IMG/VR virus record: IMGVR_UViG_3300042402_003388
Location: 36,551 to 100,550 of that record
Length of the DNA stretch: 64,000 nt
Source: a virus
Direction: 5' to 3' (one strand)
Position 1 is the first letter of the stretch. Every line of letters starts with the position of its first letter. Both the position numbers and the translations under genes were made by a program. Below the pieces are notes generated by a model. It made no database searches and was not told the origin of the DNA. It was given only the letters and a program-made list of their open reading frames with translations. Below, piece by piece: positions 6,991-15,424 of the stretch.

Positions 6991-8757
6991 ATGGATAAAA
7001 TAATATATAATGTTGCAAGCTATAAAAGAGGAGATACTTTAATAAAAACTATACAATCAATTTATAATCAATGTGATATTATCAACGTTGCACTTAATGA
7101 TTATGATGAAATACCTGTTGAATTGTACGATAAAAAAATAAATTTATTTATTACGGATAATGACAGAGGGGATGCGTATAAATTTTATAAATTAATGAAT
7201 TCTGAGGGTTATTATTTCACAATTGATGATGATTTAATATACCCCGAAAATTATACCGAATATATGGTTGATAAAGTTAATCAATATGGTAAAAAATCGA
7301 TAATTACACAACACTCAAGAAGTTTTAATTCATTTCCTATTAATAATTTTTATGGTCGTAATACCTTAGTTAATCATTTTAAACAACTACAAACTAACGA
7401 TATTAAAGTTCAATTTGGAGGTACTGGTGTTATGTGTTTTCACACTGATTTATTTAAAGTACCTATTGAATATTTTGATAGACCAAATATGGCTGATGTG
7501 TGGATTGGTAAATACGCAAAAGAAAATGATATTGATATTATATGCGTCAAACATAATAGCGGGTTTGTAGTACAACAAAATTTTGAGGACTCAATATATA
7601 CCTCCGATTCCAAAAATGATACAATTCAGACAATTTTGACTAACGACTGTTATATGGATAAGGAAGTGTCGATAATCATACCTACATTTGATAATGTTGA
7701 ATATATTCAAGAATGTTTAGATTCCGTAGTATCCTCGTGTTCTATGATTAATAACTTTGAAATATTGGTAGGTATCGACTATTGTCCAAAAACTTTAAAA
7801 TTTATAATGGAAAATAGTTTTGACTATCGAATAAGATTTTATTTTTTTAATGACAATGTCGGTCCGTATATCATTAAAAATTCATTATCAAGAATTTCTA
7901 AATCGGATAATATAATTTTTTTTGATTCTGATGATGTTATGGATAAAGATATGGTTAGTGAGGTTTTGTTAGGACTTAAAACTTCAGAATGTGTTAAACC
8001 AATGTTTCATAATTTTACTAATTATATTGATTATGACGACCCAAAATATAACTTAGAAACTAAGTTATTTGGTGAAGGGGTATTCGGAATTAAAAAAAAT
8101 ATTTTTTTAAATTTTAACGGGTTTGAAGGGTGGAGATGTGCCGCGGATTCTGACTTTATGGTTAGAATTCAAAAAAATGGAGTAACATTTAATTGGGCTA
8201 AAAAATTATTGTTTTACCGAAGAATACACGATAAAGGTTTAACAACGATTCCTGAAACTAATTATGGGTCTAAATTACGTAAACATTATATTGAGTTAAC
8301 AAATTCAAAAACAAATTTTGGGCCACTGGATGAAATGAAGATTTCGGATTTTACAAGAATTTATACTAAAACAGAAATAACTAAAATTAGTTATCGTAAT
8401 ATTATACCGACCAAACCTGTAATTGAGACTCCACAACATAGTACTGAGGATACTTTAAAACAAGTTTATTCTAAAAGTACGGTTATCGATAATAAAGTTA
8501 AACCAATTAATACTGAGGATAAAATTCTATCTAAATCAATTGAAAAGTCGGATAATAGTACAGTAGAAGATATTCGTAAAAATGTTTTATCATTATTGTC
8601 TGATAAAAAAGTTGTTAAAAAAATTGATAAGGATTTGATTGACCAAAAAAGACAAAATAGTAGAGATGTTGTAATACCGTATACAATTCAACCTGTTAAA
8701 AAGACCAGTAGAACGAGTGGGATTAACACAAAAAGAGGGGGAGGATTTAATTTTTAA
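6991..8757 (+). CDS. Two-domain glycosyltransferase with disordered tail
   Basis: Two GT-A domains are visible in 588 residues. Domain 1 begins IIYNVASYKRGDTLIKTI and has YYFTIDDDLIYP with a DDD metal site. Domain 2 begins VSIIIPTFDNVEYIQECL (about residue 222) and has NIIFFDSDDVMDKDM and FEGWRCAADSDFMVR. From about residue 470 the tail is Lys/Asp/Thr-rich and low in complexity, ending RGGGFNF, which may anchor or tether the enzyme. Two catalytic domains in one chain suggest synthesis of an alternating or two-step glycan. It is the last gene of the plus-strand sugar module. Confidence 0.85.
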   Translation: MDKIIYNVASYKRGDTLIKTIQSIYNQCDIINVALNDYDEIPVELYDKKINLFITDNDRGDAYKFYKLMNSEGYYFTIDDDLIYPENYTEYMVDKVNQYGKKSIITQHSRSFNSFPINNFYGRNTLVNHFKQLQTNDIKVQFGGTGVMCFHTDLFKVPIEYFDRPNMADVWIGKYAKENDIDIICVKHNSGFVVQQNFEDSIYTSDSKNDTIQTILTNDCYMDKEVSIIIPTFDNVEYIQECLDSVVSSCSMINNFEILVGIDYCPKTLKFIMENSFDYRIRFYFFNDNVGPYIIKNSLSRISKSDNIIFFDSDDVMDKDMVSEVLLGLKTSECVKPMFHNFTNYIDYDDPKYNLETKLFGEGVFGIKKNIFLNFNGFEGWRCAADSDFMVRIQKNGVTFNWAKKLLFYRRIHDKGLTTIPETNYGSKLRKHYIELTNSKTNFGPLDEMKISDFTRIYTKTEITKISYRNIIPTKPVIETPQHSTEDTLKQVYSKSTVIDNKVKPINTEDKILSKSIEKSDNSTVEDIRKNVLSLLSDKKVVKKIDKDLIDQKRQNSRDVVIPYTIQPVKKTSRTSGINTKRGGGFNF

Positions 8758-8766
8758 AAATAAAAT

Positions 8767-8796
8767 TTGACTTTTTACGTTACATACGTATATTTA
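8767..8796 (+). promoter_or_regulatory. Promoter for leader ORF upstream of the first tRNA block
   Basis: TTG and TATATTTA lie 19 bp apart, a near match to the Bacteroidota TTG/TAnnTTTG promoter (last base A rather than G). It lies 24 bp before the leader ORF. Confidence 0.6.
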
Positions 8797-8819
8797 ATTA
8801 AAAACAAGTAAAACTGCAA

Positions 8820-8894
8820 ATGAAAACAACACATATCATACTAATAGGCGGGACAGATAGAACTGAAGCGACTACTCCAATGGAGATGGTGTGA
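8820..8894 (+). CDS. Putative 24-residue leader peptide
   Basis: A short frame starting MKTTHIILIGG and ending TTPMEMV, with six Thr in 24 residues. Its last codons contain GGAGATGG, which can pair with the 5' arm of the terminator that follows. A promoter lies just upstream and the terminator just downstream. It was not recognised as a known leader; the regulatory reading is inference. Confidence 0.5.
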   Translation: MKTTHIILIGGTDRTEATTPMEMV

Positions 8895-8949
8895 TATTCC
8901 TATACTATGAATTCACTGAACCCATCTCCAAAAGAGATGGGTTTTTTGT
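8882..8949 (+). promoter_or_regulatory. Attenuator-like element (antiterminator versus terminator)
   Basis: Segment 1 GGAGATGG (8882-8889) lies inside the leader ORF. Segment 2 AACCCATCTCC (8919-8929) can pair with segment 1 or with segment 3 GAGATGGGTT (8934-8943). The 2:3 pairing is a terminator hairpin followed by TTTT. This is the geometry of ribosome-controlled attenuation, and the same arrangement recurs at 12554-12646. Confidence 0.6.
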
Positions 8950-13984: not shown

Positions 13985-14015
13985 TTGGTGAATTGAAAAA
14001 TGTTTCATACCTTTG
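13985..14015 (+). promoter_or_regulatory. Promoter for the tRNA/structured-RNA block 14.0-15.4 kb
   Basis: TTG and TACCTTTG are separated by 20 bp, matching the Bacteroidota consensus. No ORF follows; the first products are structured RNAs and tRNAs. Confidence 0.75.
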
Positions 14016-14029
14016 TATTCACAAACAAC

Positions 14030-14082: not shown

Positions 14083-14096
14083 AGTTCTTTGAATTA
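14083..14096 (+). promoter_or_regulatory. boxA-like element
   Basis: AGTTCTTTGAATTA matches the boxA-like motif at 8970 and 12656. It lies 68 bp after the -7 element, inside the transcript of the RNA block. Confidence 0.5.
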
Positions 14097-14102
14097 AAAT
14101 AC

Positions 14103-14237
14103 TGATAATGGTTTTCCCCACTCAACGGATGTCGACAATCCAGAATGGAATCGGAATTCAGCACCCCCTGCCGAGGCCTCGTAAAACTACGATTAAGCAG
14201 TTAAGATTGGAGCGAGATGGGTACTCCAACATTATCA
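14103..14237 (+). ncRNA. Unassigned structured RNA closed by an 8-bp stem
   Basis: TGATAATG (14103-14110) and CATTATCA (14230-14237) close the element. Inside are a TCGTA/TACGA hairpin, TCCA/TGGA and GGAG/CTCC stems. It lies just before tRNA-Phe. The only ORF spanning it also reads through the tRNA and is spurious. It resembles the T-arm-less element at 9456 in having an 8-bp acceptor-like closing stem. Confidence 0.45.
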
Positions 14238-14242
14238 TACTT

Positions 14243-14315: not shown

Positions 14316-14464
14316 CGGAGTCCTGAAATAACAGGAAACCCCCACTCCCATATGGCAGCCAGTCCATTAACCTGGTGAAGTGGGGTAATAGTCGAGTGGG
14401 CGTAATGAGGGATGGTACCCGAGTCCCCAAGACCAATAGTCCCAGACACTTGTGGGTTCTATGG
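14316..14464 (+). other. 149-bp noncoding region with strong base-pairing potential
   Basis: CCCCACT/AGTGGGG (7 bp), CCTG/CAGG and CCAG/CTGG hairpins can form. No ORF was found that does not also cross tRNAs. It is probably part of a longer structured RNA in the 14.1-15.4 kb transcript. Confidence 0.45.
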
Positions 14465-14523: not shown

Positions 14524-14529
14524 CAAAAT

Positions 14530-14631
14530 AGTCAGGAGTCCATTGGTTGGAGTCACCTCCCCAAGGTTGAGTAACAGTAAGGCTGACTCTTTATGGCAAA
14601 GACGGAACAGGTTCGAATCCTGTCCTGACTA
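14530..14631 (+). ncRNA. tRNA-like RNA with replaced anticodon arm
   Basis: The acceptor AGTCAGG/CCTGACT (7 bp), D-like TCC/GGA arm and perfect T arm (ACAGG-TTCGAAT-CCTGT) are intact. In place of a normal anticodon arm there is an extended GAGTCA..TGACTC arm and a CTTT/AAAG hairpin, and no loop has U33 plus a plausible anticodon. At 102 nt it is longer than any normal tRNA without an intron. Confidence 0.5.
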
Positions 14632-14847
14632 CACGAGTCGAGTAGTATACGACTAGTTTGCTCCCGAATGATGAGAAGTGGTGTTACAACCATAGGGACC
14701 TGAGCCGATTACTTGAGTCTAAGTCGGTTGGTTAGTGTACCAGTAACAGGAGTAAGTTAACACACAAGTTCTAACCCCTCACGAAATTGGTGAGTTGCCG
14801 CTGAAATTCGGTATTGGGGACAGTCAAAAATGATTGAACGACTATAT
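14632..14847 (+). other. 216-bp noncoding region, probably structured
   Basis: GTCG/CGAC, CCGA/TCGG and CTCAC/GTGAG hairpins are visible. No supported ORF was found. It continues the pattern of structured RNA between tRNAs. Confidence 0.4.
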
Positions 14848-14927: not shown

Positions 14928-15015
14928 GGAGGAATGGCAGAGTGGTCGATTGCACTAGTCTTGAAAACTAGCGTACCGAAAGGTACCGTAGGTTCGAATC
15001 CTACTTCCTCCGCCA
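14928..15015 (+). tRNA. tRNA-Ser(TGA), with encoded CCA
   Basis: The acceptor GGAGGAA/TTCCTCC, stem CTAGT/ACTAG around the loop CTTGAAA, and a long variable arm (GTACCGAAAGGTAC) fit. GCCA follows the acceptor, so the CCA end is encoded, unlike in most tRNAs here. Confidence 0.96.
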
Positions 15016-15424
15016 AAGACCCCACGATTAACGGAAGTATCCGACCGTTACGGAGTGTGAACCTGACTTGAAGGCTTCAAGGCTATGGGGGAGGCAACAC
15101 AAACAAACAAGGATTCCCCATTATGGATTAAGGGGGTAAGGGGCTTTAATTAGTCGTAATACAATCCACAAGTTGTAAGAATACTGAACAATCTTACAAT
15201 ACACACTCAGCTTCCGAGTGAGACTCGCCACGTAACTTTGGGGGTAGGGTGAAGATGTTCTGAGGGTAACCCTGAAATATGGGTGAGAGTAGAAACCCAC
15301 CGTGGACGGTTACTATGGGCTAACGAATCTTAGTCATATCGGTGAGGGATACTAATGACGCCAGACTATATTAAAAACTAAAAGGTTCTCCTCAAAGGCG
15401 GAGGGACGATTCAGGACCTTTTTT
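15016..15424 (+). ncRNA. Large (~410 nt) unassigned structured RNA
   Basis: There is no credible ORF. Helices visible by eye include TAACGG/CCGTTA (15029-15050), CTTGA/TCAAG, TTGTAAGA/TCTTACAA (15173-15199, 8 bp), CACTC/GAGTG (15204-15220), AGGG/CCCT, TGGGT/ACCCA (15280-15299) and GTCAT/ATGAC. The RNA ends in an imperfect AAAAGGT..ACCTTTTTT terminator. It lacks the conserved cores of RNase P RNA and tmRNA. Large ornate RNAs such as GOLLD and ROOL are known from phages, often beside tRNAs, so it may be one of these or a new class. Confidence 0.6.

Follow-up and report, generated by a model that had tools for sequence, protein, structure and literature searches.

A candidate new class of large structured non-coding RNA in the tRNA arrays of large phages

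Only few large structured RNAs without an assigned function are known, and every new class described so far has been informative. GOLLD assembles into a 14-mer RNA cage, ROOL into an octameric one. GOLLD (RF02032) is a structured phage RNA of more than 800 nt located in or near tRNA arrays, which comprises a conserved 3' domain, a variable 5' domain and covarying loop-to-strand pairings. ROOL, an RNA of phages and prophages, is often found near tRNA islands and contains several pseudoknots, and its function is unknown (PMC12286853). For both, as for OLE, a large ornate RNA forming RNA-only dimers, complexes consisting solely of RNA have recently been demonstrated, and for ROOL and GOLLD the loop pairings first predicted from covariation are intermolecular contacts of RNA-only cages (PMC12286853).

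The window analyzed here, a stretch of 64,000 nt from the IMG/VR record (100,550 bases) of a large uncultivated phage, contains 28 tRNAs (ARAGORN) and a tmRNA (RF00023, 24650-25035) on the minus strand, i.e. opposite to the RNA described in the following. Portal, major head protein and terminase of the record match the PHROGs families phrog_213, phrog_138 and phrog_2, which we take to be T4-like. Within the tRNA array, a tRNA-Ser(tga) with encoded CCA (14928-15015, plus strand) directly abuts a unit of about 409 nt (15016-15424, plus strand). According to ARAGORN and the sequence, the CCA ends at 15015, the unit begins with AAGACCCCAC at the next base, 15016, and its last stem and T-run finish at 15422-15424, so that the position behind tRNA-Ser given in the preliminary description was right. 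In about 70 viral contigs the unit is conserved with both ends sharp, and in record L002 its site is precisely empty. Downstream, a 67-aa ORF starts 29 nt past the RNA, while a Bacteroidota-type promoter-like site, TTG-N-TACCTTTG, precedes this section of the array at 13985-14025 (plus strand). Promoter-like TTG-N-TANNTTTG sites occur 31 times in the window compared to 13.8 expected (maximum of 22 in 20 resamplings), and this enrichment suggests a host from the Bacteroidota.

The plus strand of the region contains no notable ORF, as had been claimed before. The sole notable ORF, comprising 59 aa on the minus strand (15121-15300), is not conserved and was rejected as a gene: in-frame stops occur in 46 of 51 homologues and frame-breaking length changes in 37 of 51, and the differences per codon position (432, 447 and 533) show no strong bias. 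Translation, named beforehand as an objection to an RNA, is therefore set aside, and the region is non-coding.

The search for homologues started from a neighbouring gene as query and led to four related copies, whose conserved words served as patterns for scans of IMG/VR. The RNA was found in about 70 viral contigs, with unit lengths between 340 and 490 nt, and 52 distinct full-length copies were aligned (alignment A3; mean pairwise identity of 73%, minimum of 56%). Three further pattern matches (L151, L153 and L156) turned out to be chance matches in coding sequence. Since a final independent pattern brought only one further true member (L204), the family seems to be near saturation in the IMG/VR collection. 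A conserved-word scan of 84,980 bacterial and archaeal genomes (GTDB species genomes) revealed no homologue, its sole match (L150) being a chance match within a MotB-like gene. Among isolated phages, the window query matched tRNAs only and three diverged homologues used as queries found nothing; the homologue search in plasmids likewise found nothing. A single copy was present in each of the 25 large records searched (25 of 25), with a clear gap between true matches (E<1e-31) and noise (E>0.05). The first 261 nt of the RNA are 96% identical on the DNA level to L002 and L040, whereas nearby proteins of these records show 75-80% identity to those of the window, which points to a strong constraint on the RNA.

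For the window copy alone, the folding energy is ordinary (MFE z of -0.13; 40 of 100 dinucleotide shuffles fold equally well). Therefore, the case rests on the comparison of homologues, and the helices noticed in the preliminary description would by themselves prove nothing. Based on a mutual-information scan and RNAalifold, a consensus structure was derived that comprises 14 stems plus five pseudoknots (101 pairs in 19 helices; A3, 52 copies), where at least six helices had been claimed before. In A3, standard pairs are present in 95.2% of the 5205 cells, compared to 33-45% after sliding the partners by 1-3 columns, and both partners have changed in 70 of the 101 pairs. The homologues covary strongly, with a score of 0.433 compared to 0.182 ± 0.004 after shuffling, and none of 500 shuffles reached the observed value. 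All members belong to one broad phage group and part of the covariation may reflect shared ancestry, for which a tree-based count (FastTree, parsimony) of about 266 compensatory events attempts to allow. The pseudoknots contribute 6 (PK1), 16 (PK2), 16 (PK3), 7 (PK4) and 13 (PK5) of such double-change events, although they were discovered and counted on one alignment (A3); PK2 was also tested alignment-free, and the later-found L204 fits. Altogether, the comparison indicates that purifying selection acts on the structure of the RNA.

All elements of the consensus are located on the plus strand. In the 5' part, the nearly invariant P1 (15023-15026/15056-15059) encloses the hairpin P1.1 (15029-15034/15045-15050), for which 22 double-change events were counted on the tree. 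The sequence ATCC in the loop of P1.1 pairs with GGAT (PK3, 15039-15042/15111-15114); this pairing was detected by the covariation scan and occurs among the members also as CTC/GAG and ATCT/AGAT. In the hairpin P2 (15062-15066/15077-15082), two pairs have changed on both sides, and the loop of P2 pairs with a downstream strand (PK4, 15074-15076/15093-15095; covariation scan, A3), where the pair G59-C80 is also found as U-A, G-U and A-U (52 of 52 sequences). A pairing between ACCC near the 5' end and GGGU, proposed by RNAalifold, was rejected as unsupported, because only one of its two sides varies at all. In some members, a further optional arm of about 80 nt is present between PK4 and P3.

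In the central part, the hairpin P3 (15115-15119/15132-15136) shows changes from C-G to U-A. Its loop UGGAUU pairs with AAUCCA (PK1, 15124-15129/15163-15168), with changes on both sides at four pairs and the variant UGGGU/ACCCA in L152 and in L204. The hairpin P4 (15142-15145/15152-15155) accounts for 13 double-change events. The perfect 8-bp helix reported from the sequence alone corresponds to the hairpin P5 (15173-15180/15192-15199), for which 99.5% of the cells are paired and both partners have changed in seven of eight pairs. The P5 loop GAACA pairs with UGUUC (PK5, 15186-15190/15256-15260), which is replaced by GGACA/UGUCC or GAUU/AAUC in other members. For the hairpins P6 (15204-15208/15216-15220) and P7 (15223-15230/15239-15245), 100% and 96.4% of the cells are paired, respectively. 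According to A3, the variable arm P8 is present in the window in a short form (15269-15284), while in homologues it comprises about 50-70 nt and occurs in several exchangeable alternative forms; its closing pair 256-267 is found as AU, CG, GC and UA. The alignment thus describes an RNA with an exchangeable peripheral arm.

In the 3' part, P10 (15288-15291/15350-15353) closes P9 (15296-15302/15340-15347) and P9a (15318-15323/15330-15335). While P9 and P9a jointly show 43 double-change events, P10 is weak, with no pair changed on both sides. Since P1 and P10 hardly vary or covary, these two stems are less certain. Between P9 and P9a, a near-invariant GGAYGGUUACUA is located. The terminator-like 3' end noted before is formed by the terminal hairpin P11/P11a with a U-run (15380-15393/15401-15422, to 15424), P11 showing changes on both sides at nine of ten pairs. 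The J segment CGCC pairs with GGCG in the apical loop of P11a (PK2, 15359-15362/15397-15400). Across the members, this pairing occurs as at least eight different Watson-Crick helices (CGCCA/UGGCG, UGGUA/UACCA, UACCA/UGGUA, CAUCA/UGAUG, CACUA/UAGUG, UGGGA/UCCCA, UGGUG/CACCA and CGGAU/AUCCG). In the alignment-free test, own partners reached a mean of 4.58 bp compared to 3.46 bp for shuffled ones (maximum of 3.81 in 1000 shuffles), where a few mis-parsed members bias the result against the signal.

The genomic context varies among the phages. Flanking tRNAs within 1.5 kb share the strand of the RNA in all loci having them. Depending on the phage, the RNA abuts tRNA-Ser, tRNA-Arg, tRNA-Leu or a tRNA with an amber anticodon, or it lies 48-144 nt behind a tRNA. 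In L148 it is preceded by a promoter-like box, TATATTTG. At the empty site of L002, tRNA-Ser and the 67-aa ORF are 22 nt apart without the RNA, which L002 carries at another place behind tRNA-Leu. The changing tRNA neighbours together with this empty site indicate a discrete unit that changes place. In L145, the tRNA directly before the RNA, at about 2505, was called by ARAGORN with a CUA anticodon (Pyl); it is a possible amber suppressor and a hint of recoding in that phage.

These observations bear on two other explanations. The terminal hairpin with its U-run and the closely following ORF in the window could suggest that the RNA regulates the tRNA operon or the 67-aa ORF in cis or acts as their terminator/attenuator. 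This is improbable, since the adjoining tRNAs and genes differ between phages, so that no fixed position by one gene was found, and since in L002 the ORF follows tRNA-Ser without the RNA. Furthermore, some members have no terminal U-run and run on into a tRNA, and termination would need neither the upstream 360 nt nor PK2. A unit that is precisely present or absent and whose tRNA neighbours change would also fit the remnant of a selfish element, such as a degenerate group I intron, hopping between tRNA 3' ends. We regard this as very improbable, because there is one copy per genome, purifying selection acts on the structure, no ORF is present and the group I/II intron models gave no match at E<=10. 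Moreover, the upstream tRNA-Ser is complete with its CCA and therefore no split exon exists; the empty site is located behind the tRNA. In L108, the intron model did find a group I intron, and there a tmRNA with an adjoining or overlapping group I intron match (RF00028, 8352-8575) was observed at 8352-8942, both on the minus strand.

A comparison with known families was carried out with Rfam 15 (4227 families, GOLLD and ROOL included). Neither the window copy nor six homologues matched any family at E<=10, group I/II introns, GOLLD and ROOL among them. The stated lack of RNase P and tmRNA cores was borne out, with no RNase P match at this threshold and no tmRNA called in the RNA by ARAGORN or Rfam. 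The RNA resembles tmRNA (RF00023) in its richness in pseudoknots and its similar length, but contains neither a tRNA-like domain nor a tag ORF. Like OLE, it is large and ornate, but without a match to any model. With ROOL it shares the phage setting near tRNAs and the several pseudoknots, although it is shorter and differs in secondary structure. The closest parallel is GOLLD, which is likewise a large structured phage RNA of tRNA arrays with covarying loop-to-strand pairings, but comprises more than 800 nt instead of about 410 and has another secondary structure. The freshwater-1 RNA (RF02979), finally, is a structured RNA of the same phage tRNA arrays (L095:3348-3409 and L002:10532-10593), but comprises 62 nt and is unrelated to the new RNA. 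Its sites point to these phages as the source of that orphan family. A likeness to 23S rRNA, spotted by eye from the shared words AAGACCCC, ACACUGAAC and AUAGGU, was dropped, because these words are located in part in the variable arm and lack conservation in homologues, and because no Rfam match appears.

The similar genomic setting and the presence of GOLLD in many of the same phages could suggest that the RNA belongs to GOLLD, ROOL or a different Rfam family as a diverged member which the models miss. A true GOLLD was found elsewhere in 36 of the 69 contigs carrying the new RNA, for example at L009:12019-12424, L095:11836-12243, L108:7078-7485 and L099:9341-9753. These copies score about 300-340 bits and show that the Rfam models work in this lineage, whereas the new RNA gave no match to the GOLLD covariance model. 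In addition, nhmmer detected no similarity between the new RNA and the GOLLD regions of the same phages, 5' domains included. A diverged member is accordingly extremely improbable. Of the two options offered in the preliminary description, a distant GOLLD/ROOL member or a new class, the first has to be given up for lack of a match or similarity, while the 52 covarying homologues speak strongly for the second. None of the three objections raised there beforehand (lack of covariation, translation, membership in a known family) was borne out. The analogy itself, with large phages, tRNA arrays and pseudoknots, is apt in terms of context. The family is unrelated to all Rfam 15 families, but GOLLD and ROOL already represent its genre, that of large ornate RNAs which phages encode next to tRNAs. 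No earlier description was found in the literature searched; bioRxiv and most subscription journals lay outside its scope, so that one may exist.

Among 43 control records related by another gene, GOLLD was present in 8 and the new RNA in 2 (G057 and G059, both without GOLLD), although these rates are confounded by contig fragmentation and shared ancestry. GOLLD is also absent from the record of the window. The two RNAs often travel together, yet are separable. Where records were compared, GOLLD and the new RNA occupy separate loci on one strand, 6-29 kb apart, and the GOLLD regions examined have their own TAACTTTG promoter-like sites. Predicted pairing between the new RNA and GOLLD in 25 phages showed no excess over a reversed-sequence control.

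Judged from the comparative data, the RNA represents a discrete and autonomously structured unit under selection, present in one copy per genome and located in tRNA arrays on the strand of the tRNAs. It very probably constitutes a new class of non-coding RNA, large, stand-alone and highly structured, which is encoded by large phages with T4-like structural genes, probably phages of Bacteroidota. From its context, the RNA would be transcribed together with the tRNAs and, in one phage, from a promoter of its own. If the RNA begins immediately behind a tRNA, the 3'-end processing of this tRNA could release the 5' end of the RNA, while the terminal hairpin would set the 3' end. In members without a U-run that continue into a tRNA, RNase P could release the 3' end.

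Regarding function, the reading we tentatively place first is based on analogy: the region would act as an RNA, rather than as a coding or antisense sequence, in the form of a self-assembling structural RNA like GOLLD and ROOL that aids the takeover or support of translation by the phage, along with phage tRNAs and tmRNA. By the same analogy, some of the five loop-to-strand pairings may be formed between molecules. A more specific version, possible but rather doubtful, is that of a further class of phage RNA forming RNA-only, cage- or shell-like homo-oligomers, without sequence relationship to GOLLD or ROOL, with some intermolecular loop pairings and often deployed alongside GOLLD.

Alternatively, the folded RNA could serve as a decoy, sponge or scaffold, binding and titrating the ribosome or a protein of the host. 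Such a role would fit the purine-rich single-stranded segments and the loops that are conserved, and an interaction of GOLLD with the ribosome in a pull-down is cited in PMC12286853. Since nothing indicates a particular protein and the loops are tightly coupled in pseudoknots, leaving few conserved loops free, we consider this explanation unlikely, though to be kept in mind. The five pseudoknots and the near-invariant core (GGCUAUGGGGGAGGC, GGAYGGUUACUA) also recall the organization of large ribozymes, and the RNA always adjoins tRNAs. That the RNA is a ribozyme of unknown class, or forms the core of such a catalytic ribonucleoprotein, e.g. a tRNA-processing or RNA-splicing enzyme, is nonetheless distinctly unlikely, because no Rfam ribozyme, be it a group I/II intron, RNase P or any other, matched at E<=10, the flanking tRNA-Ser is complete and no conserved cleavage junction was seen.

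Compared to a self-assembling structural RNA, both explanations are thus placed lower. The well-determined consensus with five covarying pseudoknots, the compact size of 340-490 nt, suited to in vitro work, and the frequent co-carriage of GOLLD make two questions testable, namely whether RNA-only assemblies are a general strategy of phages and what role they have in tRNA-rich phages. Furthermore, an RNA-family entry built from the 52-member alignment would allow annotation in viromes, where the RNA now goes unnoticed.

Further elements were observed nearby in the tRNA array of the window. Between tRNA-Val and tRNA-Phe, a conserved structured element (14094-14240) has 22 distinct members in related phages and shows changes on both sides at 18 of 38 predicted pairs; it is not in Rfam and looks like a second new RNA family. 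Directly behind tRNA-Phe, a conserved element of about 115 nt (14317-14435; 13 members) shows few compensatory changes. For an unassigned element of about 200 nt at 14642-14842 (six members), 62 pairs were predicted, with 97.8% kept. Finally, a 108-nt element at 14526-14633 (nine members), uncalled by ARAGORN, combines a tRNA-like acceptor (AGTCAGG/CCTGACT) and a T-arm with an odd middle, and is possibly an aberrant tRNA or a tRNA-mimic.
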